From a virus: a DNA stretch of 25,731 bases. A model generated the notes under the pieces. The model had not been told where the DNA came from. It worked only from the letters and a program-made list of their open reading frames with translations, and ran no database searches. The position numbers were made by a program, and so were the translations under genes. Shown here piece after piece: positions 6,001-25,731 of this stretch (within the stretch, counting starts at the first letter, position 1; every line of letters begins with the position of its first letter). The DNA lies in IMG/VR virus record IMGVR_UViG_3300017956_000117, positions 1 to 25,731 of that record; one strand, written 5' to 3'.

Positions 6001-9000
6001 ATGGCTTATGAAGATATAGTTTATAATATGCCGAGAAATGTATATAATTTTGCAAGTATAAGTAATCAATTGGAGATTAATTTTAAAGAGTTTGCAAAAA
6101 ATGTAAATGCAATTGTAAAAGGAGATAGTGTAAACATTTCTCCTACATTTTATGAGATATTTAATGTAAATGCATTAGATGAAGTTTTAGAAGATCCTTT
6201 GAATTCTTCTAGTATTTTAAATGTTGCTGATGAAAATTCTTTGACAGTGCTTAGTGCAAATAAAATTCAACAATATGGTATAAATTTAGAAGTAGATAGT
6301 ATTTCTTTAAACAATATCATTACTCAAATTATACCAAAGATACTAAATTTAGGACAAGAAGATTTAACAAATTTAGTCTCAGAGGGAATACTAAAACCTT
6401 TGATAATAAATTTTAATACTCCTCTTGAAAATGGAATTACTTACAATGTTTATATTAATAATGTGCGAGTAGATGATCCGAATTTTGAAAATGATCCTAC
6501 TAATATAAATAATCCTGCTGCTATTATGCCTAGTCTTGTAGGAGATGGAATTAAACAAAATTTAATTTTGAATGACTACAATATTGTTTTACAAGATAAT
6601 GATGTTGTAATAATTAGAAAGATTACTAGTGATGGTAGTTTTCTACCTACAGATTTAGATTACGATAGTTTATTATCTGGAGGTGGATTAAATTACAGTA
6701 ATGCGCGAGGAATTAATGCCGAAGAAATTGTTGTGGATGGAGATTTATTTGTAACTCCTACCAATGCAAAGAGTTTAGAAGAAAATGTTCCTGGACTAGT
6801 ACAGGATTCAGTTAGTATATCAGTATTTGAAAAACCAGTGCCAGGCGTAAGTAAAATTACCAGTAGGAATTATGTAGGAAATGGAGCAGATAATACTTTC
6901 TCATTAGGAATAACACCATTTGATAATGATCTAATATTTGTTAAAATAAATGATAAAATTAAAATTCAAGATATTGACTATAAAGTAGATTTTAGCCAAA
7001 AGAGTATTATCTTTACGGATCCTCCTGCACTAAATGATAAAATAAATTTACAAACATTTAATATAAGTGGTACAAACATTCTAGATATGGGTGTGCATAT
7101 TGCAGATGGACAATCTAATACATTTATAGTAAATGCAAGATGGGAAGAAGATTTAACAAGTCAGATTACAGTTGATGGTGAACAAGTTAATTATGTATTA
7201 ATACCTGCAGATAACGAAGAATATGATAGTAGCAACAATATTTTAATTAAGTTTTCTGAATCTATTCCGCAAGGAAAAACTATTAATTATGTAATTTATG
7301 CAGGTGCAGAACAAAATTACAGCGAAATATATATTGATAATTTTATCGCAGATGGTAGTACTAATATTTTTAATTTAACCCAAACACCTTTTATGCAAGA
7401 ACCAATTGAATGGTTTACATTGGTTTTTGTAAATGATGTATTATTAAATCCTGGTTACGTTGAAACTTTTGTGCTTTCTACTGCTTTAGAATATCGGTTA
7501 AAATTATGGCAAGTTCCTTTAAGCTCAACTTCTTATAACCAAATAAGAGTGTTTCTTAATAATAACGAGTTAACGTACCTTACTGAATGGACATTTTCTG
7601 CAGCAGAATCATTGAATCCGTTAATAGATGATAGTGAACAGGTAGGATCTACGATTAAAATTAAGGAAGGTTTAGGTAAACAGGGCGATGTATTAAAAGT
7701 TTATATCATAGGATGGAAAGATAGCACAGTAGCTGGTGGAGATTATAGGTATGGTTACTACGCAGATGATGAATTTGTAAAGACGCCGGGTGTTATTCAT
7801 ATAGATGTTCCAATGGCACAAGGAGATAATGTAAAAATTTATCAATTTAGTAATCATGATAGCCAAAAAATAGACTGGCAAAGTTATGATGTAACTGAAA
7901 GGACAAAATTATCTCCTGGTATTAAAATAAATTCTGCTTATAGAAGAGTACCGGCATCAAAAATATTAGAATTTGATTTTATTTTGAATGTAGATTTCTT
8001 GTACACTGTTTATAGGAATGGAATTAGAATAGATGATGAAAATTTTGGTGTTGGACAGCAAAGCAACCCTAATGCAGAAATACCGACAATTCAAGGTAAT
8101 GGTACACGTTTTTTGAGCTTGTTTGATTATAGTATTTCTGCTAATGAAGGAGATGTGATAAAAATAGAAGAAATTAATGACTCTTATGAAATTAATGATC
8201 AATCTAAAGACTGGTACGAATTACGACAAATAAGGAATGGTTTAATACCATTAAATACTCCGGCAATTGATGACAATTATGTGTGGGTTGCAAGAAATGG
8301 GTTTTTGTTAACACCTAGTGTAGACTATTATGTTACGCATGATAGAATGTTTGTTAAATTATATAGAGAATTAGACGAGTTAGATAATATACAAACAATT
8401 CATTTTAGTAATGATGCAATGCAAAATAAGTTTGCATGGCGCCAATTTAGTGATATTTTAAATAAAACACATTATACTGTATTAGAAGGATCAAAAAATA
8501 TAAGATTAACAAAAGACTTACACTGGTATGATAAAGAAATTGAAATTAATGATGGAAATTTGTTACCAAATATCTCGCAAAAAAGTAAATTCCCAAATGT
8601 TATTTTTGTAGACGGTGAAAGGATAGAATACTGGCAAAAAAATGGTAATATTTTATATCAATTAAGAAGAGGAACATTGGGTACAGGTGTAAAAAATATT
8701 TATAAAGCAGGTATAGAAGTTTATGATCAGAGTGTAGATAAAATGTTACCTTATAAAGATGAAATTGTTTCAAGTACATTTATAGGAGACGGTAGTACTA
8801 ATGAATTTTTATTAGATTTTATGCCTAACAGTATTAATGAATTTGAAGTATTTGTTGCAGGAATTCGATTAAGAAAAACCGAACTTGTAAAATATAGTAT
8901 AGAACTAGGACAAGATTCACCAGAATCAGATATTGTACTGCCTCCAGAATTTTCGATTAACAATAATACATTAATATTAGATAGGGCTCCAGCAGAAAAT

Positions 9001-9123
9001 AATAAAGTTGTAATTTTAAGACGTTTAGGAAAATTGTGGACAGAACCTGGAACACCGTTGTATAAAAGTAATTCAAATATTGCAAAAATACTATTATCAA
9101 CAGAGGCAGACTTGCCAAGATAA
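1..9123 (+). CDS. Giant modular virion structural protein, 5' end outside the window
   Basis: The frame is open from base 1, so the gene starts upstream; the TTG at 19 is probably internal. At least 3,040 codons are present (residues below count from base 1). Visible modules are: three degenerate 'VGxxxTxxxGxxAxV' beta repeats near 103, 303 and 441; a block with FG-GAP/beta-propeller-like repeats at about 606-996 (motifs such as FGSSISLNNDGSILIVGAP and GSVFVYEQL); a Trp-rich segment at about 1066-1136 (KLWWDISDV, SSIDIYEWVES) that I remember from large structural proteins of marine T4-like phages; Gly-rich 'GxGYxxxP' repeats near 1389-1451 and 1756-1816; and repeated 'xGDGSTNxFxL' modules near 2290, 2366, 2446 and 2926. 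There is no signal peptide or enzymatic motif. Position just before the fibre genes and the repeat-rich composition suggest a baseplate, tail-fibre or whisker-like virion component. The exact role is unknown. It ends in TAA, 20 bases before the next ATG. Confidence 0.85.
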   Translation, partial: LSGNYPLRYFESEDPVTADHFLYRIEKERFTGIKLGDKIKLHYNKLSNVNQNNLILQSTEPFGDNFTFVGDPNIKFSDVITDTHIIAAKVELIINIDNALISPTVGQVITTNNGIAEIVYVFSPFIGSNDFTLYLANVRGVFEISDTAYLLGNLVGNYQLVAPVDSYDFGGYVMLMVPPYYVKNVNADNGFNIVLVDIITDNTESSVKYINVLDYSQTDTYGENTVASLIRSFSYRGTNIINATTFEDVERKMNYVGVRFPKELTDTINAGDNFNFYYNQLKKTVSLLRVRNTRYIVNPTVQVGEILTQKNTGVTATVISAEVVIDENIITPSNPVYIIQVQAVTASDTNETFNFVDELVGSVTGELFIRPYTEIETDIYKSLKDIGAGLSDVLNGENEIWNLWDGYIEYNENRYSEEGLPFQPYPKYYEDGSGLLVSDPGRQGQIIRQKGTSNTAEVMYLQRFSPSKVVVYVNNVQGTWTQGALFGALAEDTILEMLAIGDIQDPWDRSNIYTVNRQVGIIQKTSLGYEDTLGKLLIIQSSPFDITFNSLGIFENELKGEEYWYYTSRTVQGIEREPTIPVDNNLSWNEIYDIPVSTQGVTSTNINEGSVFIYEKLGNEYKLVKNIISNFRKNNHYFGAKVKIAEIDNVVHVYVLSLDGDYDFNFPGMLHFIKYGTYGNITYNWEFGKNKNYKGLFSDQSIYFKDDIVLLNNTLYQAKTNLLQSYFDEIYWSALDNYTDVFGYIPNKTGVQISIDSVDISTIPLENIYDYASNFEISNDGQVLAILVKYETEKSNVIAIYRYINGAYRWYENIISPVVDIEFGSSISLNNDGSILIVGAPAADINFRDQGLVYIYRLTNFKFELSQTLKCPKEKTLDYFGYRVDISNDILIIISLLGTLEKETIFDSSLTIFDSNFTKFTYVKENVGSVFVYEQLNNSFIYCNEFSYDEVNSTIYGIGKNIHLNKNHIYIGLPNIAIETNNIISYGKVIEFAKDTSSLLSVIQSQKYSVDLSKIKRVYLYNKKTRKLIKNLDYIDPLQGKISGLAEQNISFKTIYDPAVYSVGDAADVSILPDMSWTTENVGKLWWDISDVIFYNPMLASVTFSTNYWNKLFTNSSIDIYEWVESDILPSVWDTLVSTGEGSTAGIVGQTKYGDAAYSVKRIYDPISKTFTEKYFYWVKNLTTIPELDNRNLSALDVSKLIENPFLAGYEFISLISDNEFGLFNIEKYTNDNNTAIGFEIYKYDNLSDMNKVHYQYNIFTDGLGTNIPNESLETKWIDSLVGYDLFGRSVPDFSLSEKYKYGCLNDPRQSWFKNRQEALKQYIERINYVLKNQLIVDSKNLINLYKQDNYPNQQSNIYDLEVDLKSDLDLYGIAKAEQAEIKLEIQNGEIVGVSIVNPGRGYLRKPTYTVIGKGKDLELDFTLTSIGSIDDVQIINPGENYNDSTYIIIRKFTALVKTDETILGKWALYERDYAAKFWKRIQTQSFNLSLYWNFISWYAEGYSENTKIDYLIDYSYELTSIKDEIGSIVKINNVGLGGWLLLLKINDIENVDYTINYETIGRQNGTIQFSSVLYDPNEAFKNFDLISYDTDFYDSIPSKEIREIAKIVKNDLFVDELAVEYNQLFIAAIKYVLSEQPDVDWIFKTNFLKVKHNLGSLRQDITFNNDNLPSYESYVNEVKPFKAKIREFVAAYDRLENTSSLTTDFDLPPRFNSYFSKILPLRPIVVNDVITNIDSIDTYPDLNWVSNNTYSVTKVEIIDGGLGYGVAPKLILEGGGGTGAEAICTIGENGKIANVTVTNSGQGYVSAPKCIINGSLKENGYDGKLSVIIGNSKVRSMKTVLKFDRINKNLDRVSLDTTESFVGSGSKYIFDLQWPISYNKKDVTISVDSKVLLKSDYTIENVVDNSKGYSRMLGRIVFDTPIENFALCIISYKKEISFLHAQDRINLFYQPEINQYGKDLSLLLDGVDYGGVEVRSFGFGNTSGWDTTDYFSNAYDTYDMAYEDIVYNMPRNVYNFASISNQLEINFKEFAKNVNAIVKGDSVNISPTFYEIFNVNALDEVLEDPLNSSSILNVADENSLTVLSANKIQQYGINLEVDSISLNNIITQIIPKILNLGQEDLTNLVSEGILKPLIINFNTPLENGITYNVYINNVRVDDPNFENDPTNINNPAAIMPSLVGDGIKQNLILNDYNIVLQDNDVVIIRKITSDGSFLPTDLDYDSLLSGGGLNYSNARGINAEEIVVDGDLFVTPTNAKSLEENVPGLVQDSVSISVFEKPVPGVSKITSRNYVGNGADNTFSLGITPFDNDLIFVKINDKIKIQDIDYKVDFSQKSIIFTDPPALNDKINLQTFNISGTNILDMGVHIADGQSNTFIVNARWEEDLTSQITVDGEQVNYVLIPADNEEYDSSNNILIKFSESIPQGKTINYVIYAGAEQNYSEIYIDNFIADGSTNIFNLTQTPFMQEPIEWFTLVFVNDVLLNPGYVETFVLSTALEYRLKLWQVPLSSTSYNQIRVFLNNNELTYLTEWTFSAAESLNPLIDDSEQVGSTIKIKEGLGKQGDVLKVYIIGWKDSTVAGGDYRYGYYADDEFVKTPGVIHIDVPMAQGDNVKIYQFSNHDSQKIDWQSYDVTERTKLSPGIKINSAYRRVPASKILEFDFILNVDFLYTVYRNGIRIDDENFGVGQQSNPNAEIPTIQGNGTRFLSLFDYSISANEGDVIKIEEINDSYEINDQSKDWYELRQIRNGLIPLNTPAIDDNYVWVARNGFLLTPSVDYYVTHDRMFVKLYRELDELDNIQTIHFSNDAMQNKFAWRQFSDILNKTHYTVLEGSKNIRLTKDLHWYDKEIEINDGNLLPNISQKSKFPNVIFVDGERIEYWQKNGNILYQLRRGTLGTGVKNIYKAGIEVYDQSVDKMLPYKDEIVSSTFIGDGSTNEFLLDFMPNSINEFEVFVAGIRLRKTELVKYSIELGQDSPESDIVLPPEFSINNNTLILDRAPAENNKVVILRRLGKLWTEPGTPLYKSNSNIAKILLSTEADLPR
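6430..6636 (+). repeat. Protein-level repeat module A in the giant virion protein
   Basis: This stretch encodes about 69 residues that align with the stretch at 7990-8187 of the same gene. Shared positions include YxVYxNxxRxDDxNF, then NPxAxxP, then GxG, then LxDYxI and DVxxIxxI. The DNA itself has diverged, so this is an old internal duplication rather than a recent one. The alignment was made by eye. Confidence 0.6.
7990..8187 (+). repeat. Protein-level repeat module B in the giant virion protein
   Basis: This is the partner of the module at 6430-6636. It keeps the YTVYRNGIRIDDENF core, the NPNAEIP turn, the GNG turn and the LFDYSIS...GDVIKIEEI end, with a gap of one or two residues relative to module A. 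It belongs to a run of related beta modules that fill the C-terminal third of the protein. Confidence 0.6.
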
Positions 9124-9143: not shown

Positions 9144-9755
9144 ATGAGTGATATATTAAAAGACAGAAGTAACACTAGAATAGAAGGATACATTAAAATT
9201 TATGATCCTGAAACTAAGAAAATTTATGTAGATAAAAGAAATGCAATACATTATGAAAATATGAGTATTGCTATGGCTCAGTCTTTGAGTAATGCAGGTA
9301 TAGGTTTTATATACTCTATGGCTTTTGGAAATGGCGGAACAAGTGTGGATCCTACTGGAATTATAACTTATTTAACTCCAAATAGCACCGGAACTAATGC
9401 AAGTTTGTATAACGAAACATATGAAAAAATTGTTGATGATAGAAGTGTTAATAATAATGATGCATTTCGGAATAAGACAGAAATTAGACATGTAAGTGGT
9501 ACAAATTATACCGATATTCTAGTATCTTGTTTGTTGGATTATGGAGAGCCTAGCGGACAAGATGCTTTTGATACTGCAACTAATACAGAAGATCTATTTA
9601 TTTTTGATGAATTAGGATTAAAAAGCTATAATAATGATGGAACATTTTTAATAACTCATGTTTTGTTTCATCCTGTTCAAAAAAGTCTTAATAGATTAAT
9701 ACAAATAGATTATACCTTACGCATACAAAGTTTATCCGGTTTACTTGGAGATTAA
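9144..9755 (+). CDS. Putative virion structural protein, 203 aa
   Basis: The ATG at 9144 follows AGGA (9134-9137) at a good distance, and the gene lies between two clear virion genes in the same direction. The protein is soluble and beta-rich, with no signal peptide, membrane segment or enzymatic motif. Recognisable conserved-looking parts are the N-terminal 'KIYDPETKKIYVDKRNAIHYENM' region (first 40 residues), a central FGNGGTSVDPTGIITYL segment near residue 61, and a C-terminal THVLFHPVQKSLNRLIQIDY segment. I remember proteins of this type beside tail-fibre genes in marine T4-like phages, annotated only as structural or hypothetical. A neck, baseplate or fibre-connector role is possible but unproven. 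Confidence 0.75.
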   Translation: MSDILKDRSNTRIEGYIKIYDPETKKIYVDKRNAIHYENMSIAMAQSLSNAGIGFIYSMAFGNGGTSVDPTGIITYLTPNSTGTNASLYNETYEKIVDDRSVNNNDAFRNKTEIRHVSGTNYTDILVSCLLDYGEPSGQDAFDTATNTEDLFIFDELGLKSYNNDGTFLITHVLFHPVQKSLNRLIQIDYTLRIQSLSGLLGD

Positions 9756-15507: not shown

Positions 15508-16440
15508 ATGGCAGTGTCAAGTGTGGTTCAAGGTGGATCGATTAATGCAACTGATTACAATAATTTGCAAAGTAAAGTTGCTCAAATTTTAGGTGTAGGA
15601 TCAGGTGATTATGGTTATGGGCAATCTGTTACAAGCTCGCAAGTTGTTGCTAGTAATTATCCTACCCAGCCCGCAGTTGGAGATTTTGTAACAGCGGAAC
15701 AATTAGATGATTTAAGAACCGACATTCAAGCATGCTATGTTCATCAAACTACTAGCAATTTTTTATTAGGTGATATAAATGTTGGAGATTGGATTACTGC
15801 AGGAGCATCTGCTGGTACAGATAGTGCAACACACAATCAGTATGTATCTTATGTAAATACAATTGATGCTAATAGATTACCTACTACTTCATTAAATACT
15901 AACGAAATGGATTCAGTTTTTAGTGTTAGGTCTAGCTCAAGAACAAGTGCTTGGAATGGAACGATAAATTTTATTTTTACAGTCACATTTTCAGACGCAA
16001 ATCATAGAAGATATTTTTTTAACACTGGAGGAGAAATTAGGATTAATTTAGCAATGTCAGGAACAAGCGGATCAAAATCTAATAATTGGGCCACAATGGT
16101 AACAAATGCCCCTGACCCGGTGACTTTTGGATATACTCAAAACGCAAGTCTTACCCAAAATTGGTCAAACTTATACACAGCAACAGGTTCAGGAGTGTAT
16201 CTCGAAAATGATTTAATTGTAAGAGCAAAACAGGGAACAAACACTTATCAAATTCAATTTGAAGTAAGGTTACAAGATGACGATACCGGTGATCAACGAT
16301 TGCCAGCTACAGAACCAGGACCGGCAGTAGACGAAAATGTTAACGGGACAATTACTTGCTCAGTAGATGAATTTAAGGCTGTAGGTTCTTACGTTGCTAT
16401 AACTAGTCCTACTTATACTACTGATTCAGCTTTCCAATAA
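15508..16440 (+). CDS. Putative virion structural protein, 310 aa
   Basis: The product starts AVSSVVQGGSINATDYNNLQ and is Ser/Thr/Asn-rich and beta-rich, with no signal peptide, membrane span or catalytic motif. The first 100 residues (two DY/N-L motifs, GVGSGDYGYGQ near 32, TAEQLDDLRTDI near 63-75) look like a conserved N-terminal domain that I associate with structural proteins of marine T4-like phages. The rest (FIFTVTFSDANHRRYFFNTG near 150, then TGSGVYLENDLIVRAKQG and IQFEVRLQDDDTGDQ) resembles a beta-sandwich. It follows the fibre genes and has its own apparent late promoter and strong ribosome binding site. A virion component is likely; which one is unknown. It is the last structural-type gene before the enzyme cassette. 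Confidence 0.7.
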   Translation: MAVSSVVQGGSINATDYNNLQSKVAQILGVGSGDYGYGQSVTSSQVVASNYPTQPAVGDFVTAEQLDDLRTDIQACYVHQTTSNFLLGDINVGDWITAGASAGTDSATHNQYVSYVNTIDANRLPTTSLNTNEMDSVFSVRSSSRTSAWNGTINFIFTVTFSDANHRRYFFNTGGEIRINLAMSGTSGSKSNNWATMVTNAPDPVTFGYTQNASLTQNWSNLYTATGSGVYLENDLIVRAKQGTNTYQIQFEVRLQDDDTGDQRLPATEPGPAVDENVNGTITCSVDEFKAVGSYVAITSPTYTTDSAFQ

Positions 16441-16463
16441 ATTGATAGTTTTTTTAGTAAGTC

Positions 16464-16471
16464 TATAAATA
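16464..16471 (+). promoter_or_regulatory. Candidate T4-type late promoter (TATAAATA) driving the enzyme cassette
   Basis: An exact TATAAATA sits in the 50-base gap between the last structural gene and the 16491 gene, 19 bases before its ATG. It is the only plausible promoter seen ahead of the ten-gene cassette. AAAAGG at 16481-16486 then serves the 16491 start. If real, the glycosyltransferases and radical SAM proteins are expressed late, with the virion proteins. Confidence 0.55.
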
Positions 16472-16490: not shown

Positions 16491-16838
16491 ATGGACGAAC
16501 GACTTGAAAAAGCTATTAAATTTTCCAATTATATGGCCTCTTTACACAATCAAAAAAGGTCATTTCAAGAAAAGTATTATCAAGATTTAATTTATTTTTT
16601 TAATGGAAGTCAATTTACAGTTACAAAAGAATTAATATCCTTTTGTAAAATTATGTTAGATTCTTCTCAAACAGAAATAATTTTAATAGATGATAATCAA
16701 ATTCCAACCGAAATAGAAAATTTAGAGGAATTTTTTAATAATATTAAAAATATCTACATAAATGCTTCAAATGAATTTATTGTAAGTTATAATAGAATAA
16801 AAAAAGAACGGACAATTGAGAATTTAGTAGATTTATGA
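16491..16838 (+). CDS. Small conserved-type phage protein of unknown function, 115 aa
   Basis: ATG at 16491 follows AAAAGG at a 4-base gap. The product is mostly helical and charged, starting DERLEKAIKFSNYMASLHNQ, then QEKYYQDLIYFFNGSQFTVT, a probable strand TEIILIDDNQIP, and a second helical part ending RTIENLVDL. It has no Cys-rich, membrane or nuclease motif. I recall similar short proteins in marine T4-like phages without a function. It is first in the cassette after the candidate late promoter, and its stop overlaps the next start as ATGA. Helical content and small size would suit a chaperone, adaptor or assembly factor, but nothing proves that. Confidence 0.75.
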   Translation: MDERLEKAIKFSNYMASLHNQKRSFQEKYYQDLIYFFNGSQFTVTKELISFCKIMLDSSQTEIILIDDNQIPTEIENLEEFFNNIKNIYINASNEFIVSYNRIKKERTIENLVDL

Positions 16839-17731
16839 GTAAAGGTATTTTACTGTATGCAAGAAATAATTCAAAAATAGATTATACTAAACAAGCTTAT
16901 TTCTTGGCAAAAAGAGTTAAAAATATTTTAGGGTTACCTACATCAATAGTAACCGATAGCGAATTGTATTTGAAAACACAATTTCCGGATTGTGAAAAAG
17001 TTTTTGATAAAATTATTCCCATAGTATGGTCGGAAAATAGTAACATTGATGGCACTATTTTAAGTAAATTTGAAAATCATTTTTACAAATTATATAGAGA
17101 TGGTACTATATCTAAACAAAAGTTAGCTTTTAAAAATCAATTAAGATCTTCGGCATATGATGTTACACCTTATAATGAAACTTTATTATTAGATACTGAT
17201 ATAGTGCTATCTAATACTAATTTTTTACATTGTTTTGAACAGAAAAATAATTTTCAAATTTATCATGAATCCTTTGATTTAGCTGGTTTTAGAGATTATT
17301 CTGAATTTAAGTATATAAATGATATAGGAATTAAATTTTATTGGGCAACAATAGTCTTTTTCCGGAAAACGGAAGAAAACAAAATATTTTTTGATTTATT
17401 AAAACATATCCAAGACAATTGGAATCATTATAAATCAGTTTTTCAAATAAATCAAAGTTATTTTAGAAATGATCATGCTTTTAGCATAGCTATACATATT
17501 ATGAATGGTTATACAGAAGGAGATTTTGCGTCTTCTTTACCTGGTAAACTTTATTATACTACAGATAAAGATATTTGTTGGGATATAGATAAAAATAAAA
17601 TAACTTTTTTATTAGAAAAAGAAAATTATGTCGGAGAGTATACATTGGCATCTTGGAATGATGTTACAATACACGTTATGAACAAATTTAGCCTTAATAG
17701 ATGTATTGATAAGGAATTAAAAAATGTCTAA
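16835..17731 (+). CDS. Putative GT-A glycosyltransferase, GT8-like
   Basis: The 298-residue product begins with a beta strand (KGILLYA) and has PYNETLLLDTDIVLSNTNF, with the Asp-Thr-Asp at about 120-122. That is the DxD metal/nucleotide-sugar site of GT-A enzymes. RNDHAFSIAIHI downstream matches the second Asp-containing motif of GT8-like enzymes, and HVMNK near residues 280-284 gives a C-terminal H-x3-K. It is paralogous to the next gene (same start, DTD, and H-x3-K). It should move a sugar from a nucleotide donor to an unknown acceptor in the cytoplasm. The start overlaps the previous stop by 4 bases. The fold and class are reasonably supported; donor and acceptor are not. Confidence 0.7.
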   Translation: MSKGILLYARNNSKIDYTKQAYFLAKRVKNILGLPTSIVTDSELYLKTQFPDCEKVFDKIIPIVWSENSNIDGTILSKFENHFYKLYRDGTISKQKLAFKNQLRSSAYDVTPYNETLLLDTDIVLSNTNFLHCFEQKNNFQIYHESFDLAGFRDYSEFKYINDIGIKFYWATIVFFRKTEENKIFFDLLKHIQDNWNHYKSVFQINQSYFRNDHAFSIAIHIMNGYTEGDFASSLPGKLYYTTDKDICWDIDKNKITFLLEKENYVGEYTLASWNDVTIHVMNKFSLNRCIDKELKNV

Positions 17732-18548
17732 TGGGTTTTTATTTTATGCTGATGGAAATGAATATGTAACACAAGCATGTTTATCGGCAATGAGTATTAA
17801 AACAAAAAATGATGTATCTATTAGCATAATTACAAAGAACAAAATTTTGCCAAAGTATCAAGGATTGTTTGATAACATATTAGAACCTTTATGGTTAGAA
17901 CATGATGATTCGAGATATAGTATTTTAAATAGATGGAAATTATATCATAATACTCCATATGATAAAACTATTGTATTAGATACAGACACATTAGTCTTAC
18001 AAAATTTAAATTTGTGGTGGAAATTTTTTGAAAATTATAATCTTTTTTTCTTAAATAAAGTTTTTACTTATAGATCTACAATTGTAACTGATAATTATTA
18101 CAGGAAATTATTTGAAACTAATCATTTACCTAATTTATATTCGGGAATGCATTATTTTTTAAAGTCACAAAAATCTAAAGATTTTTTTGCTTTAGTAGAA
18201 TTAATATCAAAAAATTGGGAAATGTTTTACGGACAATTTTGTAAAGAATATTATCCTAAATATCCTAGTATGGACGTTTCATTTTCCATTGCAAGTAAAA
18301 TCTTAGATAATGATGTTGAAATTACAAATAATATTGTAAATTTTGTAAAATTTGTTCACATGAAAAAGAATATCCAAAATTGGAAAAATGTTACAGGTGA
18401 ATGGCATGATAAAGTTGGAACTTATTTAAGTCCAAATTTAGATTTTTATGTGGGAAATTATTTGCAAACCGGAATTTTCCATTATGCATCTAAAAATTTC
18501 TTGTTAGATAATATTTTTAAAAAATATGAAAAATTTTTGGGAATTTAG
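17724..18548 (+). CDS. Putative GT-A glycosyltransferase, paralogue of the 16835 product
   Basis: The 274-residue product starts SNGFLFYADGNEYVTQACLS, mirroring the previous protein, and has PYDKTIVLDTDTLVLQNLN with DTD at about 86-88. A later SMDVSFSIASKIL corresponds to the second Asp motif, and HYASK at about 253-257 is the C-terminal H-x3-K. AAGGA (17711-17715) lies 8 bases before the ATG, and the gene overlaps its neighbour by 8 bases. Compared with the 16835 product, it is shorter before the DTD and has an inserted segment near residues 100-130. Divergence suggests the two transfer to different acceptors or act in sequence. No membrane segment is seen, so it is probably soluble. Confidence 0.7.
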   Translation: MSNGFLFYADGNEYVTQACLSAMSIKTKNDVSISIITKNKILPKYQGLFDNILEPLWLEHDDSRYSILNRWKLYHNTPYDKTIVLDTDTLVLQNLNLWWKFFENYNLFFLNKVFTYRSTIVTDNYYRKLFETNHLPNLYSGMHYFLKSQKSKDFFALVELISKNWEMFYGQFCKEYYPKYPSMDVSFSIASKILDNDVEITNNIVNFVKFVHMKKNIQNWKNVTGEWHDKVGTYLSPNLDFYVGNYLQTGIFHYASKNFLLDNIFKKYEKFLGI

Positions 18549-18550
18549 AT

Positions 18551-19099
18551 ATGTTTATACAATTTGATCCAGCGAACGGAGAGCTTATTCGTGTAACAAA
18601 TACCCAACCTGATTTTGATTTTATAGAAGTAGATAAAGAAGATATTATTGAAGTCCATACTGGAAAAATTTCTGCAAAAAAATATATTGTTGTTTTTAAT
18701 GATAAATTAGGGAAGTACCAATTACAGAAAAAAGATGTAATTAATGTTTTTAATACTACAATACACAATATTTTATATGAAATTCCTACAAATAAAAATA
18801 GAGAAGGAATTACCATTATTCAAGATATATCAAATAGTTGCTGGAAATTTTTAATAAATAAAGATTTAGAAATTGACTTAAAATCTAGAAATTCTTTTAC
18901 AAATTATTCTTTATATTTTAGTGTTACTGAATTAGGAAATCCTAATGTACTTTACAGGCAACTAGAAATTAATTTAGAACAATTAGTAAAAAATCATTAT
19001 CAGATAGTTAGTTTTTTACATGATTTTGAAAGTAGTGAATTATTAATAAGCATTTACACAAATAAAATATTTGAATATAACTATGAAAGAAAAGAATAA
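18551..19099 (+). CDS. Hypothetical phage protein of unknown function, 182 aa
   Basis: The product starts FIQFDPANGELIRVTNTQPD, followed by a short beta-rich region (KKYIVVFNDKLGKYQLQKKD) over the first 65 residues, and then a second region (about 85-182) that reads as a beta-sandwich (GITIIQDISNSCWKFLINKD, NYSLYFSVTELGN, LLISIYTNKIF). It has one Cys and no enzymatic motif. The N-terminal part resembles small domains I remember at the start of marine phage structural or fibre-associated proteins. It lies inside the glycosyltransferase/radical SAM cassette with a 2-base gap before it and a 1-base overlap after it. It could be a substrate, partner or minor virion protein; none of these is shown. 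Confidence 0.7.
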   Translation: MFIQFDPANGELIRVTNTQPDFDFIEVDKEDIIEVHTGKISAKKYIVVFNDKLGKYQLQKKDVINVFNTTIHNILYEIPTNKNREGITIIQDISNSCWKFLINKDLEIDLKSRNSFTNYSLYFSVTELGNPNVLYRQLEINLEQLVKNHYQIVSFLHDFESSELLISIYTNKIFEYNYERKE

Positions 19100-20025
19100 T
19101 GGAAAATACATTCCGTGTATTAGACTATGATATAATATATTTAAGTTATGATGAACCTAATGCAGAAAAAAATTATGCTGATTTAGTTACAAAAATTCCA
19201 TGGGCAAAAAGAGTTCACGGTGTAAAAGGTTCTGATTCTGCTCATAAAGCTTGTGCAGAGTTGAGTGAAACAGATAGGTTTGTTACTATAGATGGCGATA
19301 ATAGAATTAGAGAGCATTTTCTAGCACAAGAAATTAATTTTGAGCAACATGTTGAATTAAAAAATAAGGTTATATCGTGGTGCGGTCATAATGTAATTAA
19401 TGGATTAATGTATGGTAATGGCGGAGTAAAATGTTGGCCTAAAGAATTTGTTTTAAATATGAAAACTCATGAAAATGCTGCACCTGATAATCCACATGCC
19501 CAAGTTGATTTTTGTTGGGATGTAGAATATATACAGATGAATAGTTGTTTTAGTGACATTTATAATAATGCAACACCACAGCAAGCATGGCGGGCAGGAT
19601 TTAGAGAAGGGGTTAAGATGGCGCTTGATCAGGGAGTAAAGCCTTCTTTAGATGATTTTTATAAAAATCATTGGAAAAATCTACATCGGTTGTATATATG
19701 GTTAATGATAGGAGCAGATATTGAAAATGGTTTATGGGCAATATTAGGAGCAAGGCAAGGTTTATACAAAACTATGTGTACAGATTGGGATTATGTGAAT
19801 GTGAGAGATTTTGAATACTTAAATAATTTATGGAATAAAGAATTGTTGTGTATAAAAGATAATGATTTAGAAAAAGAAATTAAGCAAATAGGAAAATATA
19901 TTATAGGAGAATTGAAAATTCCTATCGGCGTAGATCCATTAAGTAAAGATCAGAGCGTATTTTTTAAAACAGTTTATTTAAATCCTGCACGAATATCTAA
20001 TAAAATAATAGATGTAGAAACATGA
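19099..20025 (+). CDS. Possible GT-A-like protein with DGDN motif
   Basis: The 308-residue product opens with DIIYLSYDEPNAEKNYADL (about 11-29), PWAKRVHGVKGSDSAHKACA (34-53) and DRFVTIDGDNRIREHF (59-74). Asp-Gly-Asp at 65-67 after a beta strand fits a GT-A DxD site, and the N-terminal order (strand, SYDEPNAE, KGSDSAHKACA) resembles GT2-like nucleotide-binding folds. WCGHNVINGLMYGNGGVKCW (from about 94) would then be the acceptor half. I remember similar unannotated proteins in T4-like cyanophages. The C-terminal part is helical and of no known domain. Stop and start overlap on both sides (TAATG before, ATGA after), so it is translated with its neighbours. Glycosyltransferase function is a moderate inference. 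Confidence 0.6.
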   Translation: MENTFRVLDYDIIYLSYDEPNAEKNYADLVTKIPWAKRVHGVKGSDSAHKACAELSETDRFVTIDGDNRIREHFLAQEINFEQHVELKNKVISWCGHNVINGLMYGNGGVKCWPKEFVLNMKTHENAAPDNPHAQVDFCWDVEYIQMNSCFSDIYNNATPQQAWRAGFREGVKMALDQGVKPSLDDFYKNHWKNLHRLYIWLMIGADIENGLWAILGARQGLYKTMCTDWDYVNVRDFEYLNNLWNKELLCIKDNDLEKEIKQIGKYIIGELKIPIGVDPLSKDQSVFFKTVYLNPARISNKIIDVET

Positions 20026-21395
20026 ATGAGATAGATCATATCAAGAATGTTTTAGATATTACAAATAAAGAAGTAAGTCCAACATTTTGTTTAGCTAAAT
20101 GGCATCATACAACTCTTTATCTGCAAACTGGGGAAACGCATAGCTGTTATCACCCGCCTCCGCATAAAATATTAATAGAAGAAATAAAAAATAATCCTAG
20201 TGCTTTGCATAATACAAGTGAAAAAAAAATGCAAAGAAGTTTAATGTTAAAAGGAGAAAAGCCTGTAGGATGCAATTATTGTTGGAATATAGAAAATTTA
20301 GGGTCCGAGTATGTAAGTGATAGGCACATAAAGACAGCAAGTATTTATACACCAGAAAGATTAGCTGAAATAAAAAATAATTCTTTTGATTTTAACATCA
20401 ATCCAGAATATATAGAAATTTCTTTCTCGAATGAATGCAATTTTAAGTGTGGTTATTGTCATCCTAAAGCAAGTAGTAGATTTTGGAACGAAATTGAAGA
20501 ATTTGGACCATACAAAGACAGTACAGAGCATAGGCAAGATATAGATTGGTTTACAGTTTATAAAACCGAAGATGAAAATCCCTTTGTAGAGGCATGGTGG
20601 AAATGGTGGCCTACTGTATCAAAAACACTTAACATTTTAAGAATAACAGGTGGAGAACCTTTATTGCACAAAAGTACTTGGAAATTGTTAGACCTTTTAG
20701 ATAAAAATCCTAAACCCTATCTTCAAATTGAATTAAATACAAATCTTGGAGTTAAAAAAAGTTTAATTGAAAAATTAGTAAAAAAAATAACAAAATTACA
20801 TCAAGAGAATAAAATTAAAAGTTTTAAATTGTATTCATCTATAGATACATGGACGAGTAGAGCCGAATATGTTAGAACAGGACTAGATCTAAAATTATGG
20901 GAAGAGAATTTAGATTATTTTTTAATGAATTCTAACTATCCAATAACTTTTATGATTACTTTTAATATATTTTCAGTAACAAGTTTTGATAGCTTATTGT
21001 TAAAGATATTAGAATGGAGAAAAAAGTATAACAATGATAAAGTAGAGCAATGGCAAAGAATAAGATTTGACACTCCACATTTAAAAGAGCCTTATATTTT
21101 TGATATGAATATTTTGCCAAAAAGTGAATATCTTCCTTATATGTACAAACACATGGACTTTTTTAAAAAAAATTTAGATGATAATAATAAATTAAAATTT
21201 TCTACTATTGAGTTGAAAAAATTTGATAGGATTTTGAATTATATGAAAGGAACAGAATTTTCTGAGTTGAAACTTTTAGAAATAAGGAGAAATTTTACAA
21301 ATTGGTTTGATGAATATGATAGAAGAAGAAAGTTAAACAGATACGATTATTTTCCTGAAATGAAAGGTTTCTTTGAGTTGTGTAAAAAAATATAA
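20022..21395 (+). CDS. Radical SAM protein with N-terminal twitch-like domain (first of three)
   Basis: The 457-residue product has the radical SAM cluster motif CxxxCxxC at Cys139, 143 and 146 (NECNFKCGYCHPK) and the SAM-binding GGEP at 210-213. Before it is a twitch-like element: Cys23 and Cys42 (x18 between them, with Trp27 and Gly37), then Cys84-x2-Cys87, four likely ligands of an auxiliary iron-sulfur cluster. This order, auxiliary domain before the radical SAM barrel, is the N-terminal-twitch architecture. A Trp-rich insertion (W192, W193, W195, W196) lies between CxxxCxxC and GGEP. The helical tail after about residue 380 is long. Radical SAM enzymes use SAM to make a 5'-deoxyadenosyl radical; twitch members often act on peptides or sugars. 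The substrate is unknown. The start overlaps the 19099 gene by 4 bases (ATGA). Confidence 0.85.
   Translation: MNEIDHIKNVLDITNKEVSPTFCLAKWHHTTLYLQTGETHSCYHPPPHKILIEEIKNNPSALHNTSEKKMQRSLMLKGEKPVGCNYCWNIENLGSEYVSDRHIKTASIYTPERLAEIKNNSFDFNINPEYIEISFSNECNFKCGYCHPKASSRFWNEIEEFGPYKDSTEHRQDIDWFTVYKTEDENPFVEAWWKWWPTVSKTLNILRITGGEPLLHKSTWKLLDLLDKNPKPYLQIELNTNLGVKKSLIEKLVKKITKLHQENKIKSFKLYSSIDTWTSRAEYVRTGLDLKLWEENLDYFLMNSNYPITFMITFNIFSVTSFDSLLLKILEWRKKYNNDKVEQWQRIRFDTPHLKEPYIFDMNILPKSEYLPYMYKHMDFFKKNLDDNNKLKFSTIELKKFDRILNYMKGTEFSELKLLEIRRNFTNWFDEYDRRRKLNRYDYFPEMKGFFELCKKI
21363..21367 (+). promoter_or_regulatory. Ribosome binding site AAAGG supporting a TTG start at 21373
   Basis: AAAGG lies 5 bases before a TTG at 21373, inside the end of the upstream gene. 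No in-frame ATG lies near the start of the 21373 gene; the nearby ATG at 21395 is in another frame. The motif therefore decides the start, though a second TTG ten codons downstream (21403) cannot be excluded. Confidence 0.45.
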
Positions 21396-22548
21396 TGACT
21401 ATTTGATATTTATTGATAACACACAAAATTTATATGATGCTATACAGATTGATAATATATATATAGAAAGATTATTTGGTGTATTTAATGGGTTTGATAT
21501 CACAAAAGTTAGAAATATTTCTTATTTAAATTTTGCTCCTGAAAATGTTCTGAAGCTAGTATTATGCCATATGCATTTGCCACTAAATTATGAAATAAAT
21601 CTTGCTGATGAAACATTAATTAAAATTAATAATTCTCCTAATACTTTTTTATGGATTGTTAGTTTTTTTGAATTCTTTTTTGCCCAAGACAAACTTTTAA
21701 ATTCTATTAATTCTAGGATAATACAAGAAAAAAAAGTTATACTAACTACAAGTAATAGTAACTATAAGAATAAAATAATTAATAAAGTAAAGTTTACGTC
21801 TGTAAATACATTCTGGTGGGGATTTCATCGACATGTAATTAATCATTACCCACAGACTGCTCTTATCAAACCTTTGGAAAAGTATGATAATTTGAAGAGA
21901 GCTAAGAAAAAATTTTTATGTTTAAATCAAAATTTAAAAACTCACAGAATTTGGACAGTTTATCATATTTTAAAAGAAAATGCAGAAAAGCAAGGTTACC
22001 TCAGTTGCAGATTTGATTTAATGATTAAATTACAAAAAGATTCTGTTTTAGCAGGTTGGTATAGCAATATTAATAGGTTACCAGACAAAGATATCGCTGA
22101 AAAGATGTCTAATGGAATTATTTTAGATAGGATTAAAGGTAAATCCGTATATAGACCAGAAGATTCTATAATGTCATATTATATGAAGTCTTTATTCAGT
22201 ATTATAACAGAATCTGATGTAGTAGAAGATTTTGTTACAGAAAAAGTATATAAAGCAATTTGTTGCTCACATCCTTTTATTATAATAGGAAGTAAAAAGT
22301 ATATTACAACATTACACTCACTTGGTTTTCAAACGTACGAAGAAATATTCGGAACATCTTATATTGATAATGAACATGATTTTCAAAGATTTGTTAAAAA
22401 AATAAAAATAATGCCGCTAGATGTAATTAAGGAAAAAATTGTTGCAGTAAAAAACAAAGTAGAATATAATTATAATCATTTTCTGCAAACACCTTTACCG
22501 TTTAATCAAATAATTGAAGATATTTATAAAGTATTAGAAAATGAATAA
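21373..22548 (+). CDS. Putative glycosyltransferase with GT10/fucosyltransferase-like C-terminus
   Basis: The 391-residue product has an unmotifed N-terminal half. Its C-terminal half contains SLFSIITESDVVEDFVTEKV, then YKAICCSHPFIIIGSKKYI, at about residues 275-312, followed by LHSLGFQTYEEIFG. 'FVTEKVYKA...HPFIIIGS..Y...L..LGFQT' is the nucleotide-sugar-binding pattern of GT10 (alpha-1,3-fucosyltransferase) and similar GT-B proteins. LKTHRIWTVYHILKE (about 189-203) would be in the N-terminal lobe. A GT-B transferase is therefore likely, with sugar and acceptor unknown. It uses a TTG start that overlaps the upstream radical SAM gene by 23 bases, so its translation is coupled to it. The first 180 residues are divergent, so their fold assignment is weak. 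Confidence 0.6.
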   Translation: MSCVKKYNDYLIFIDNTQNLYDAIQIDNIYIERLFGVFNGFDITKVRNISYLNFAPENVLKLVLCHMHLPLNYEINLADETLIKINNSPNTFLWIVSFFEFFFAQDKLLNSINSRIIQEKKVILTTSNSNYKNKIINKVKFTSVNTFWWGFHRHVINHYPQTALIKPLEKYDNLKRAKKKFLCLNQNLKTHRIWTVYHILKENAEKQGYLSCRFDLMIKLQKDSVLAGWYSNINRLPDKDIAEKMSNGIILDRIKGKSVYRPEDSIMSYYMKSLFSIITESDVVEDFVTEKVYKAICCSHPFIIIGSKKYITTLHSLGFQTYEEIFGTSYIDNEHDFQRFVKKIKIMPLDVIKEKIVAVKNKVEYNYNHFLQTPLPFNQIIEDIYKVLENE

Positions 22549-23752
22549 AACCTTTTGTATATATCCTTGGATAAATTTCCATACAACAACTGAAGGAAGA
22601 TGTAAGCTATGTTGTCATGTTTACACAGAAGATTATATTAAAGTAGGTGATAATGATGCTATTGTAGGGCATCATGATATAGATCAAATATGGTTCGGTG
22701 ATTATATGGAAAATGTTCGTAATAAAATGCTAAATGGAGAGCCAGTTAAAGAATGTAGCAGATGTTATGAACACGAATTAAAAGGTATAGAAAGCAGTAG
22801 AGAATGGGCTAATAAAAATTATTTTACTAAACAATATCTAAGTTTAGAATATCCTAAACATTTAGAGTTAAGATTAGGAAATAAATGTAATTTAAAATGT
22901 AATAGTTGTTGGAGTGTTAGTAGTAGTAATTTATATAAAGAGCGTAAAAAAATTATGTCTATAGATAAGGACATTCCAGAATGGATCAATAATCAATGGC
23001 ATCATGAAATTAACATTGTGGAAAGTTTTGATTTTAAATGGTTTGAAACTAAAGAATTTTCGACTTTTATTGATAAAGTTAGTCCTACACTAGAAAAATT
23101 ATATTTAACAGGAGGAGAACCAACTTTAATAAAAGCAAATGTAAATGTGTTAAATTCTTTAATAAAATATAATAATAATAGTTGTTATGTAGCATGGACT
23201 ACTAATTTAACATCTTGGCCACAAGAATTTTATGAATCTTTAGATTTTTTTGATAGCAGTGAAGTCCAAATGAGTATTGATGGATATAAATCTTCAAACA
23301 CATACATCAGATATCCTACCGAATGGGATATTGTAGAAAAAAATTTTAAAAATGCGTTGGATTTACCTAGTAAAGTTTCGTTGAAAGTATATTTTGTTGT
23401 ACAAGCTTGGAATCTGTTAGATATTAGAAAGCTTGTAACATGGTTAGAAACATTTGAAAGGAAAATTGATTTTGTACCTATATTTTTAGAGTATCCGGAT
23501 CAGTTACATTCAACAGTTTGGCCTAAAGAAGTGATTGAATTTATAATTAATGATTTACAAAAGATTTATACAAAAAGGCACAGTAATTCAATAGAGAGAA
23601 TTATAAATTATTTACATGATTCTATTTATGATAAAAAGAAAATAACAAAAATGAAAGAATTCATTGCCATTAACGATAAATATAGGAAAATTAAATTTAA
23701 AGATATATTTCCTTATTTCCATCAAATAATAGAAAAAGAGTGCAAGATTTAA
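22541..23752 (+). CDS. Radical SAM protein with N-terminal twitch-like domain (second)
   Basis: The 403-residue product has an N-terminal twitch-like element with Cys6 and Cys25 (x18; also Cys21 and Cys24), Trp10 and Gly19, then Cys72-x2-Cys75 (KECSRCYEHE). The radical SAM motif is at Cys116, 120 and 123 (NKCNLKCNSCW) and GGEP at 191-194 (LYLTGGEPTLIKAN). A 60-odd residue stretch separates the two, longer than in a minimal radical SAM barrel, and includes FKWFETKEFSTF. YVAWTTNLTSW and VQMSIDGY follow as later barrel strands. It is paralogous to the 20022 and 24732 products but is diverged, so a separate substrate or position is likely. The start overlaps the 21373 stop by 8 bases. Confidence 0.85.
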   Translation: MNKTFCIYPWINFHTTTEGRCKLCCHVYTEDYIKVGDNDAIVGHHDIDQIWFGDYMENVRNKMLNGEPVKECSRCYEHELKGIESSREWANKNYFTKQYLSLEYPKHLELRLGNKCNLKCNSCWSVSSSNLYKERKKIMSIDKDIPEWINNQWHHEINIVESFDFKWFETKEFSTFIDKVSPTLEKLYLTGGEPTLIKANVNVLNSLIKYNNNSCYVAWTTNLTSWPQEFYESLDFFDSSEVQMSIDGYKSSNTYIRYPTEWDIVEKNFKNALDLPSKVSLKVYFVVQAWNLLDIRKLVTWLETFERKIDFVPIFLEYPDQLHSTVWPKEVIEFIINDLQKIYTKRHSNSIERIINYLHDSIYDKKKITKMKEFIAINDKYRKIKFKDIFPYFHQIIEKECKI

Positions 23753-24717
23753 AAGCAATTATACCAGCAAAAGAAAAATGGTGTAGTATAGTTTGGCAAG
23801 TAAATGATTGGTGCAATTACAGGTGCTCATACTGCAATGATTGGAACTGGGCTGGTAGGAACAAGAATGATAAAAACATTAATTTAATTGTAAACACTCT
23901 TGAAAATATAATAAATTTTTATAAAAAAAATGGATATAGATATTTTAAATTGTATCTTAGTGGTGGTGAACCGACTTTTTGGGACGGACTGATTCCTGTT
24001 GTAGAAAAATTTAGGGAGTTAGCAACTTGGCCAGGCAGTTGTGTTGGAATCAATACAAATTTTAGTAGATCAACAACTTGGTGGGAAGAAAATCATCATT
24101 TATTTGAAGATGTTGTTGCCAGTTATCATGCAGAATGGACTAAAGAAGAAAAATATCTTAATTCTTTTAAATTTTTACAAACTAAGAAAAACTATTTATG
24201 CAGTCGTATAATGATGCATCATCAGCTATTTCAACAATGTATTAACTTTGGTGAACGTATAAAAAAAGAGTGTCAAAATTATATAATAGAATATGCTCCT
24301 GTTTATGACGAATTAAGACCAACAACTGACCCTTACAATTATAATGAGAAATGGCAAATGGATTTTTTTAAAAATAATAGTACAGTTTATAAACAAACTG
24401 TGCCAATTAAAAAAAATCCTAATTATGCATGGGCGAAAATAGAATTTATTGACGGTACAACATCTCCTATCAACACAAATGCTTTAATAACTGAAAGGAA
24501 AAATTTTTTCAAAGGATGGACTTGTAATATCCATGAAAGTTTGCATATTCATCCAAATGGAAAAATTCAAGCTGCAAGTTGCGGAGTTGGTCCAGTTCTT
24601 GGCAATATTGTTCTTGGAGAATTTAATAGTCATTTAGTAGAAGGTGTAATTTGTCCAAAAAACCATTGTCATTGTGCAGCTGATTTTAACATTACAAAAT
24701 TTAAACAAAGAACATAG
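23740..24717 (+). CDS. Radical SAM protein with C-terminal twitch/SPASM-like domain
   Basis: The 325-residue product starts at GTG (23740), 13 bases inside the upstream gene; the next in-frame Met is far downstream, after the radical SAM motif. CxxxCxxC is at Cys25, 29 and 32 (DWCNYRCSYCNDW) and GGEP at 75-78 (LYLSGGEPTFWDG). The auxiliary Cys set is at the C-terminus instead: Cys262-x18-Cys281 around HIHPNGKIQAAS, then Cys305, 310 and 312 (ICPKNHCHC). The Cys-x18-Cys spacing is the same as in its three neighbours, so the auxiliary module has the opposite placement here. Radical SAM proteins with C-terminal twitch or SPASM domains commonly modify peptides. The substrate is not visible. No good Shine-Dalgarno precedes the GTG, so coupled translation is likely. 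Confidence 0.8.
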   Translation: MQDLKAIIPAKEKWCSIVWQVNDWCNYRCSYCNDWNWAGRNKNDKNINLIVNTLENIINFYKKNGYRYFKLYLSGGEPTFWDGLIPVVEKFRELATWPGSCVGINTNFSRSTTWWEENHHLFEDVVASYHAEWTKEEKYLNSFKFLQTKKNYLCSRIMMHHQLFQQCINFGERIKKECQNYIIEYAPVYDELRPTTDPYNYNEKWQMDFFKNNSTVYKQTVPIKKNPNYAWAKIEFIDGTTSPINTNALITERKNFFKGWTCNIHESLHIHPNGKIQAASCGVGPVLGNIVLGEFNSHLVEGVICPKNHCHCAADFNITKFKQRT

Positions 24718-24731
24718 ATATAATTTAAAAA

Positions 24732-25731
24732 ATGGTAGTAGATAAAAATAAATTGCTAAAAGAATCTAAAACATTTTGTATGTTTCCGTGGATGCATATT
24801 TACTCTAATCCTGACGGAACTACATGGCCCTGCTGTAATACTGAGCCTGAAGTTATAAATGAATCGTTGGAGAACAAGACTTTAGAAGAAATTTTTGTTA
24901 GCGAAAAATGGAATCAGTTGCGATTAGACATGCTTGAAGGAAAAGAAAATCCAGCATGTAGAAAATGCTATGCAGTTGAAAAAGCAGGCGGTGCAAGTTA
25001 TAGAAGTTATGCAAATAAAGATTTTGGTAATAATATTGATTTGGTAGACAATACTTTACAAGATGGTAGTTTAGAATCGGTACAATTTAAATATATAGAT
25101 ATTAGGTTTAGTAATCAATGTAATCAGGCATGTGCAACATGTGGGCCTGAATTTAGTACTTATTGGCAAAAACTATTAATAGATAATGACAGATTTTTTG
25201 ATAAATTTAAAAAATTTTATAGGTTATCAAATCATTCAAAAGAGAACATTTTTGAACAGTTAAAACCTCATTTTCCTACTGCTCAAGAAATTTATTTTGC
25301 AGGCGGCGAACCTCTAATTATGGATGAGCACTATCAAATATTAAATCATCTAATAGATATAAAAGCTAATGATACTGTAAAGTTAAGATACAATAGTAAT
25401 TGTAGTAATTTTTACTATAAAAAAAGTAGTGTTATAAATTTATGGAATAAATTTAAATATGTTAAGTTAGGAGCAAGTGTAGATGCTGTTGAAGATGTTG
25501 CAGAGTTAATAAGATTTGGTACTAATTTTAAAACGTTATCTAGTAATTTAAAAGAAGCATTAACTTGTGAAAATTTAATATTACAATATGATACTGTTGT
25601 AAGTGTATTAAACATTGATCATTTACCTTATATGTATGATTATTTGTTAGAAAATGATTTAGTGAATAAACAAACATGGTTTACACTTAATTTAGCCTTC
25701 ACCCCTCTTCCTTTTAGTTTAACTAGTTTAA
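24732..25731 (+). CDS. Radical SAM protein with N-terminal twitch-like domain (third), 3' end outside the window
   Basis: An ATG at 24732 opens a frame that runs to the end of the window without a stop (333 codons). Translating it gives FCMFPWMHIYSNPDG near residues 15-29, with Cys16 and Cys35 (x18; also Cys34), Trp20 and Gly29, then Cys76-x2-Cys79 (ACRKCYAVEKAGG). The radical SAM motif is at Cys130, 134 and 137 (SNQCNQACATCGPE) and GGEP at 191-194 (IYFAGGEPLIMDEH). This is the third protein of the same architecture as the 20022 and 22541 products. It lies 14 bases after the previous stop, the only break of that size in the second half of the cassette, and has no clear Shine-Dalgarno. The remainder lies beyond the window. 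Confidence 0.85.
   Translation, partial: MVVDKNKLLKESKTFCMFPWMHIYSNPDGTTWPCCNTEPEVINESLENKTLEEIFVSEKWNQLRLDMLEGKENPACRKCYAVEKAGGASYRSYANKDFGNNIDLVDNTLQDGSLESVQFKYIDIRFSNQCNQACATCGPEFSTYWQKLLIDNDRFFDKFKKFYRLSNHSKENIFEQLKPHFPTAQEIYFAGGEPLIMDEHYQILNHLIDIKANDTVKLRYNSNCSNFYYKKSSVINLWNKFKYVKLGASVDAVEDVAELIRFGTNFKTLSSNLKEALTCENLILQYDTVVSVLNIDHLPYMYDYLLENDLVNKQTWFTLNLAFTPLPFSLTSL

Follow-up and report, generated by a model that had tools for sequence, protein, structure and literature searches.

A conserved glycosyltransferase and radical SAM gene core behind a fibre gene of marine T4-like phages, with a possible role in virion decoration

What does a row of glycosyltransferase (GT) and radical S-adenosylmethionine (radical SAM, rSAM) genes do when it is positioned directly behind the tail fibre genes of a virus? 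The question is raised by IMG/VR record IMGVR_UViG_3300017956_000117, analyzed here over its entire 25,731 bases (the window), in which the cassette from 16491 to the window end comprises ten open plus-strand reading frames (ORFs), the last one incomplete at the end. An earlier reading made without database searches (the sequence-only reading) had described these ten genes, one of them partial, as lying behind the fibre genes and had proposed that they modify a glycan or peptide of the virion or of the host surface; content and position were both recovered in our analysis, and the proposed role is still the best class of explanation. The core order s115-GT8-GT8-p182-DGDN-rSAM recurs behind the gene of the fibre-type protein FIB4 in about 150 IMG/VR loci, and our reading, which we hold with roughly even confidence, is that this core may assemble a tailored glycan and attach it to the FIB4-type fibre protein. 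The genes of the cassette are, in order:

16491..16838, plus strand: gene 1, s115, small conserved protein and first core gene, at the same position in the 78 DGDN-seeded loci described below and in the s115-seeded loci
16835..17731, plus strand: gene 2, GTa, GT8-like glycosyltransferase with invariant D120 and D122
17724..18548, plus strand: gene 3, GTb, GT8-like glycosyltransferase with invariant D86 and D88 and a match to glycogenin (5.5e-7)
18551..19099, plus strand: gene 4, p182, probably a non-enzymatic partner
19099..20025, plus strand: gene 5, DGDN protein, probable GT-A-fold glycosyltransferase by its AlphaFold model, linked to N_Twi_rSAM in bacteria
20022..21395, plus strand: gene 6, RS1, N-terminal-twitch radical SAM enzyme and last core gene (NF033640, 297 bits)
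21373..22548, plus strand: gene 7, GTx, possible glycosyltransferase of unproven class and first gene of the exchangeable block
22541..23752, plus strand: gene 8, RS2, N-terminal-twitch radical SAM enzyme (NF033640, 293 bits)
23740..24717, plus strand: gene 9, rsB, radical SAM enzyme of another type (PF04055, 1.5e-5)
24732..25731, plus strand: gene 10, RS3, N-terminal-twitch radical SAM enzyme, cut by the window end (NF033640, 306 bits)

A search for the same gene order in other genomes, as the sequence-only reading had recommended, was run in two ways: seeding with DGDN gave 80 loci and seeding with s115, independently of DGDN, gave another 80; the two sets share some contigs, some loci are near-identical, and 54 loci have less than 90% mutual identity in p182. 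Among the DGDN-seeded loci, 78 carry s115 and 76 of these display the order s115-GT8-GT8-p182-DGDN (the 76 having been chosen by that order, the informative figure is 76 of 78), nearly always with an N_Twi_rSAM gene next and FIB4 before. In the s115-seeded loci the order is repeated on every contig of sufficient length, with p182 unrecognised in one. With relatives sharing the core at roughly 40-70% protein identity, its gene order is far beyond chance. The core is also common, with at least 595 DGDN relatives confirmed in IMG/VR, yet no match to s115, GTa or DGDN turned up among 50,697 phage records. Co-translation, which had been thought likely, is in line with the junctions of the cassette, seven out of nine being overlaps (4, 8, 1, 4, 23, 8 and 13 bases) and two being gaps of 2 and 14 bases; in relatives the median core junctions are -4, -8, -4, -8 and -1 bases.

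Membership in the N_Twi_rSAM family was judged by the curated NF033640 cut-off of 170 bits, which RS1, RS2 and RS3 all exceed; rsB is not a member because it scores only 21 bits. The four radical SAM proteins of the sequence-only reading thus comprise three members of this family and one radical SAM protein of another, unnamed kind. The CX3CX2C motif was intact in 230/230 homologues scanned, the N-terminal cysteines 8, 26, 68 and 71 of N_Twi_rSAM are invariant in alignment A7, and the N-terminal cysteine domain of these enzymes matches the auxiliary-cluster region of the cyclitol dehydrogenase BtrN (8.9e-7). The two transferases described as GT8-like have kept that description on the strength of the glycogenin match of GTb, a profile-to-profile match of GTa to GTb (99.7%), through which alone GTa is tied to GT8, and an invariant DxD motif in each; neither reaches a Pfam cut-off and no Pfam GT8 match was found. 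DGDN is probably a GT-A-fold glycosyltransferase as judged by its AlphaFold model (predicted local distance difference test score, pLDDT, 86), for which the top Foldseek matches in the PDB are GT-A glycosyltransferases (best 3.1e-5, with a template modelling score of only ~0.3); a relationship of DGDN to GT8 was considered and dropped, having no profile support. Searches by sequence gave no credible homologue of solved structure for GTa, GTx or DGDN. The label GT10-like once given to GTx was not confirmed, with hhalign to true GT10 proteins reaching 18% probability on a (V/I)TEK motif and no Pfam or PDB match; GTx is a possible glycosyltransferase of unproven class. The AlphaFold model of p182 is confident (pLDDT 91) and matched neither a PDB structure nor a known fold. 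Since the inserted module of long p182 forms is found either in p182 or fused to GTb in long GTb forms (L055, L060, L075, L079, L081), p182 is probably a non-enzymatic partner of GTb; as a virion protein it was rejected, phmmer finding its inserted modules only in p182 and GTb. No known relative of s115 was found, the search for RS2 relatives returned only contig L002, and a genome scan with a twitch rSAM found no relative; alignment A7 proved too divergent for scanning.

Upstream, the cassette adjoins a series of virion genes:

1..9123, plus strand: giant virion structural protein, 5' incomplete (phrog_10938 virion structural protein, 3e-74)
9144..9755, plus strand: fib1, small virion protein (phrog_11259, 4e-67)
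9760-11841, 11846-13867 and 13908-15476, plus strand: three FIB2-type fibre/collar proteins (tail collar and tail fibre PHROGs)
15508..16440, plus strand: FIB4, fibre-type protein and candidate substrate, homologous to PA5oct gp360

The giant protein has homologues by hidden Markov model in the phages Phosso and Atu_ph07 and in PA5oct (gp355), the FIB2-type proteins have homologues in Phosso and PA5oct, and fib1 has a homologue in PA5oct gp357; gp355, gp357 and gp360 are all annotated as detected by electrospray ionisation tandem mass spectrometry. Many FIB4 proteins end in a recurrent C-terminal pattern like RATGSYVxVxxPxYxxxSxL. In five loci (L099, L105, L106, L112, L125), rsB lies on the opposite strand between two FIB4 genes. 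In one clade (L051:617-7286, L029, L032, L033), a FIB4-type fibre that is ~1,800 residues long and contains extended runs of proline precedes a 2-oxoglutarate- and iron-dependent (2OG-Fe) oxygenase, a DUF6065 protein and the core; the pairing suggests that prolines of the fibre are hydroxylated. No collagen-like repeats were found in the fibres.

We postulate that the core proteins (s115, the two GT8-like transferases, p182, the GT-A-like DGDN transferase and the N-terminal-twitch rSAM) work together as soluble enzymes, which would make a short modification of sugar or sugar-like nature in the cytoplasm and attach it to a fibre-type virion protein, FIB4 being the most likely acceptor. The downstream rSAMs, a B12-type rSAM, SGNH hydrolases and nucleotide-sugar enzymes would then tailor this modification, the chemistry being oxidation, epimerisation, C-methylation or similar, and the benefit of tailoring by exchangeable cargo may be a different surface towards hosts in each lineage. 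We favor a virion target because of: 1) the strict linkage to FIB4; 2) the recurrence of this linkage on a bacterial contig (L219, below); 3) the position of rsB between FIB4 copies; 4) the oxygenase beside the poly-proline fibre; 5) the analogy with two phage isolates (below); and 6) the scarcity of membrane proteins, a predicted membrane segment being present in only 19 of 1037 cassette ORFs, mostly short or spurious ones by a crude hydropathy test. The overlapping core genes, the sugar-related enzymes in the cargo and the BtrN match of the rSAMs also speak for this reading.

The content behind RS1 varies between relatives. Contig L002, 99.94% identical to the window over 9,538 bases, reaches past the window end, and the array begun with RS3 continues in L002/L082; in L002 it goes on with three N_Twi_rSAM genes, the third set apart from the first two by a B12-binding rSAM, and then with an SGNH hydrolase, a second DGDN gene, a UDP-sugar dehydrogenase and f7 (a suspected class I methyltransferase with no Pfam match). 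With this extension the array comprises six N-terminal-twitch rSAM genes, rsB, one B12-type rSAM and an SGNH hydrolase. Other relatives carry rSAM arrays, SGNH hydrolases, UDP-sugar dehydrogenase, epimerases, RmlC and DegT proteins as cargo, and further an FkbM methyltransferase, a tryptophan halogenase, 2OG-Fe oxygenases, an AMP ligase and a hexapeptide transferase; NF033640 matches, weak ones counted, number 10 in the 91 kb contig that holds L004 and 13 in the 382 kb contig that holds L015. In L021:12028-13500, and also in L023 and L024, a protein of the tryptophan-halogenase family (PF04820, 1.7e-70) is encoded on the opposite strand of the cargo region. A search with rsB revealed that a block GTx-RS-RS-B12-rSAM-RS-rsB-RS-SGNH is conserved in other marine viruses (L251-L274, around rsB at 10001-10966 in most). 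The window therefore joins two modules, a fixed core behind the fibres and an exchangeable GTx-rSAM-rsB block, because the block is conserved on its own in other viruses.

Counterparts are also found in bacteria. In a set of 369 Bdellovibrionota genomes, assigned to the phylum by record titles, DGDN was present in 21, all 21 of which also have N_Twi_rSAM (present in 124/369), often side by side (hypergeometric P 3e-11, with shared ancestry not corrected). At L231 and L237, up to 8 N_Twi_rSAM genes stand in tandem within 20 kb of chromosome, without DGDN and among housekeeping genes. These bacterial loci resemble the window in their NF033640 proteins, tandem arrays and DGDN linkage; unlike the window, they are without fibre genes, one contig excepted. 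This contig (L219:5067-17513) reads FIB4-s115-GTa-GTb-p182-DGDN-RS-RS-rsB, and its core follows pheT (on the trmD-rimM-pheS-pheT side) and a bacterial-type RS-DGDN-rsB. The fibre gene in it is open, the G+C content shifts gradually, no Gp23 was found in the genome, and s115 occurs in this 1 of the 369 genomes. Because the contig ends shortly after the cassette, L219 may be a chimera or a prophage remnant, the gradual G+C shift and the open fibre gene notwithstanding.

Several observations weigh against a fibre target. PA5oct has the FIB4 homologue and no cassette there; no substrate motif was established in FIB4; DGDN, rSAM and rsB occur in Bdellovibrionota chromosomes devoid of fibre genes; and around the GTx-rSAM block of other viruses there is mostly no fibre, GT8 or DGDN gene within up to 20 kb. 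To these must be added the promoter before s115 in most relatives, which suggests that the cassette is expressed separately from the late virion genes and perhaps ahead of them. The sequence-only reading had taken all ten genes to function together; they are not one inseparable pathway, as the core is fixed behind the fibres and the exchangeable block elsewhere lies far from fibres. Genes scattered and independent in related phages, together with unmodified virion proteins, had been named as the finding that would refute that reading, and the behaviour of the block goes halfway towards it.

The promoter region of the cassette is the following:

16442..16471, plus strand: TATAAATA at 16464, alternatively readable as TTGATA-N16-TATAAA

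The TATAAATA site lies 27 bp upstream of s115, and another copy is present at 15472 before FIB4. Because the window holds fewer copies than its shuffles (6 vs. 11), the site at 16464 is weak evidence alone. Among relatives, TATAAATA precedes s115 in 3/76 as compared with FIB4 in 15/64, and a late operon argued from TATAAATA alone was abandoned on both counts. A strict sigma70 promoter (TTGACW-N16-18-TATAHT within 100 bp of s115) was found in 57 of 72 non-redundant relatives, with the -10 end most often 20-29 bp from the start codon, against a background of 43 matches in 1.155 Mb of the same loci. Matches upstream of DGDN in relatives, where they mark a second strict sigma70 promoter, account for 22 of these 43. 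As sigma70 precedes s115 in most relatives, whereas FIB4 has TATAAATA in some, the cassette is by its predicted promoters a host-type transcription unit of its own in most relatives, the clade of the window being the exception. The late promoter proposed for the cassette is thus doubtful for the window and contradicted in most relatives.

This promoter speaks for the main rival explanation, in which enzymes made early from a host-type promoter alter sugars of the host lipopolysaccharide or capsule, either to exclude competitors or to stop progeny from sticking to debris. Nucleotide-sugar enzymes among the cargo fit such modification of the host envelope, as does the way in which GT clusters of pelagimyophages (PMC7029224) and jumbo cyanophages (PMC7824862) have been interpreted in print. 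However, no membrane phosphoglycosyltransferase, flippase or polymerase of O-antigen or capsule synthesis was recognised among the 1037 cassette ORFs by the same hydropathy test, and the core strictly adjoins FIB4, even in the single Bdellovibrionota contig; we consider host-envelope modification possible, if on the doubtful side. Another explanation holds that the product is diffusible or DNA-directed (a small molecule, a peptide or modified bases), with the fibre position being merely a shared insertion hotspot. The GTx-rSAM block is indeed mobile and independent of fibres, N_Twi_rSAM arrays reside among Bdellovibrionota housekeeping genes, and a secondary-metabolite cluster has been proposed for jumbo cyanophages (PMC7824862). 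We find this unlikely, given that a mere hotspot would not keep the core so strictly behind FIB4 and that the window showed neither an export gene nor a carrier protein or precursor peptide. Defence or counter-defence by viperin-like rSAMs making antiviral nucleotides is highly improbable, as the weak pVip matches of genes 6, 8, 9 and 10 are generic and restricted to the shared radical SAM core, with at most 37 bits to the prokaryotic viperin NF038283 vs. a cut-off of 180, and multi-gene arrays with GTs do not fit it.

Returning to glycan installation on the fibre, cultured relatives bear on what rSAM enzymes may do at this genomic place. The virus is placed by sequence comparison as a marine T4-like phage with jumbo phages among its relatives; gp23, the major capsid protein, of the 382 kb relative contig matches Phosso at 72%, Vibrio phage 2.275.O at 71.5% and CBB at 69%. 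In Phosso and Atu_ph07, which share with the window the upstream order of giant virion protein, fib1 and FIB2, SPASM rSAM genes occupy the same slot after fib1 and FIB2; the main text of the Atu_ph07 paper (PMC6102473) does not name the genes in this slot. The two phages have in common the giant virion protein, fib1, FIB2, a cupin-like gene and the rSAMs, three of which are 68-81% identical. Neighboring the rSAMs is a protein of 306 (Phosso, XYS97446, L240:10415-11335) or 297 (Atu_ph07, gp170, L243:13119-14009) amino acids, with a body 38% identical and a nearly identical CXXX-repeat tail (CHTSCHASCHSSRSRR and CHSSCHASCHNSRSRR, respectively), the proteins ending in YCHTSCHASCHSSRSRR and FCHSSCHASCHNSRSRR. 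The rSAM is similar to peptide maturases of the PapB type (7.6e-12) and weakly so to TIGR04115, a maturase of CXXX repeats, and the tail looks like an rSAM-matured one. Because these rSAMs adjoin a conserved CXXX-repeat tail, the isolates point, by analogy, to rSAM maturation of a peptide type at this place. Their system is not homologous to that of the window: the rSAMs are SPASM enzymes of other families, GT8, DGDN and s115 are absent, and the CXXX-tail protein is there instead. No relatives of the Phosso CXXX-tail protein were found in IMG/VR. FIB4 proteins showed no Cys-rich tail and the loci examined no CXXX core, so that no precursor of a ribosomally synthesised and post-translationally modified peptide (RiPP) was found; such a tail was encountered in Phosso and Atu_ph07 only. 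As a tentative and somewhat unlikely generalisation, fibre-slot rSAM arrays of T4-like jumbo phages might serve a RiPP-like maturation of virion proteins, with radical-made crosslinks, epimers or edited sugars on receptor-binding fibres.

Some actinobacteriophages have GT genes beside tail genes, with phage-encoded GTs acting on virion proteins; we know of no rSAM enzymes in these systems. Closer to the window is the host recognition cluster of pelagimyophages, for which Zaragoza-Solas et al. (2020, PMC7029224) mention a fibre region with GT8 genes and "radical SAM cassettes"; the window resembles it in placing fibres, GT8 and rSAM among virion genes. The sequence-only reading knew of no described pathway with this combination of genes; fibre-region GT8/rSAM cassettes are already in that paper, the sections of which considered here give no conserved gene-level core, promoter, bacterial counterpart or rSAM function. 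The largest relative contig of the window has its gp23 nearest to jumbo phages, and of the VrlC...gp14 flanks of the pelagimyophage cluster the gp14 side lies beyond the sequence covered. Jumbo cyanophage clusters (Iyer et al. 2021, PMC7824862) are alike in their several GT families, nucleotide-sugar enzymes, halogenase and 2OG-Fe oxygenases; the terms "radical SAM" and "SPASM" do not occur in the main text, nor does the part considered describe a conserved core linked to fibres. The literature searched gave no account of the conserved core or the two modules, nor of the promoter, the linkage in bacteria or the counterpart in isolates.

With Phosso (host Sinorhizobium meliloti) and Atu_ph07 (host Agrobacterium tumefaciens C58) being culturable relatives with rSAMs in the slot, the question is open to mass spectrometry. 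If the host surface is edited, the cassette would represent a new exclusion chemistry. If rSAM arrays mature virion proteins, exchangeable rSAM/GT cargo would allow the phage surface to vary by a second route in addition to amino-acid change. If the fibres are decorated, abundant marine phages would carry chemical modifications over much of their receptor-binding surface, in ways that are unreadable from protein sequence.

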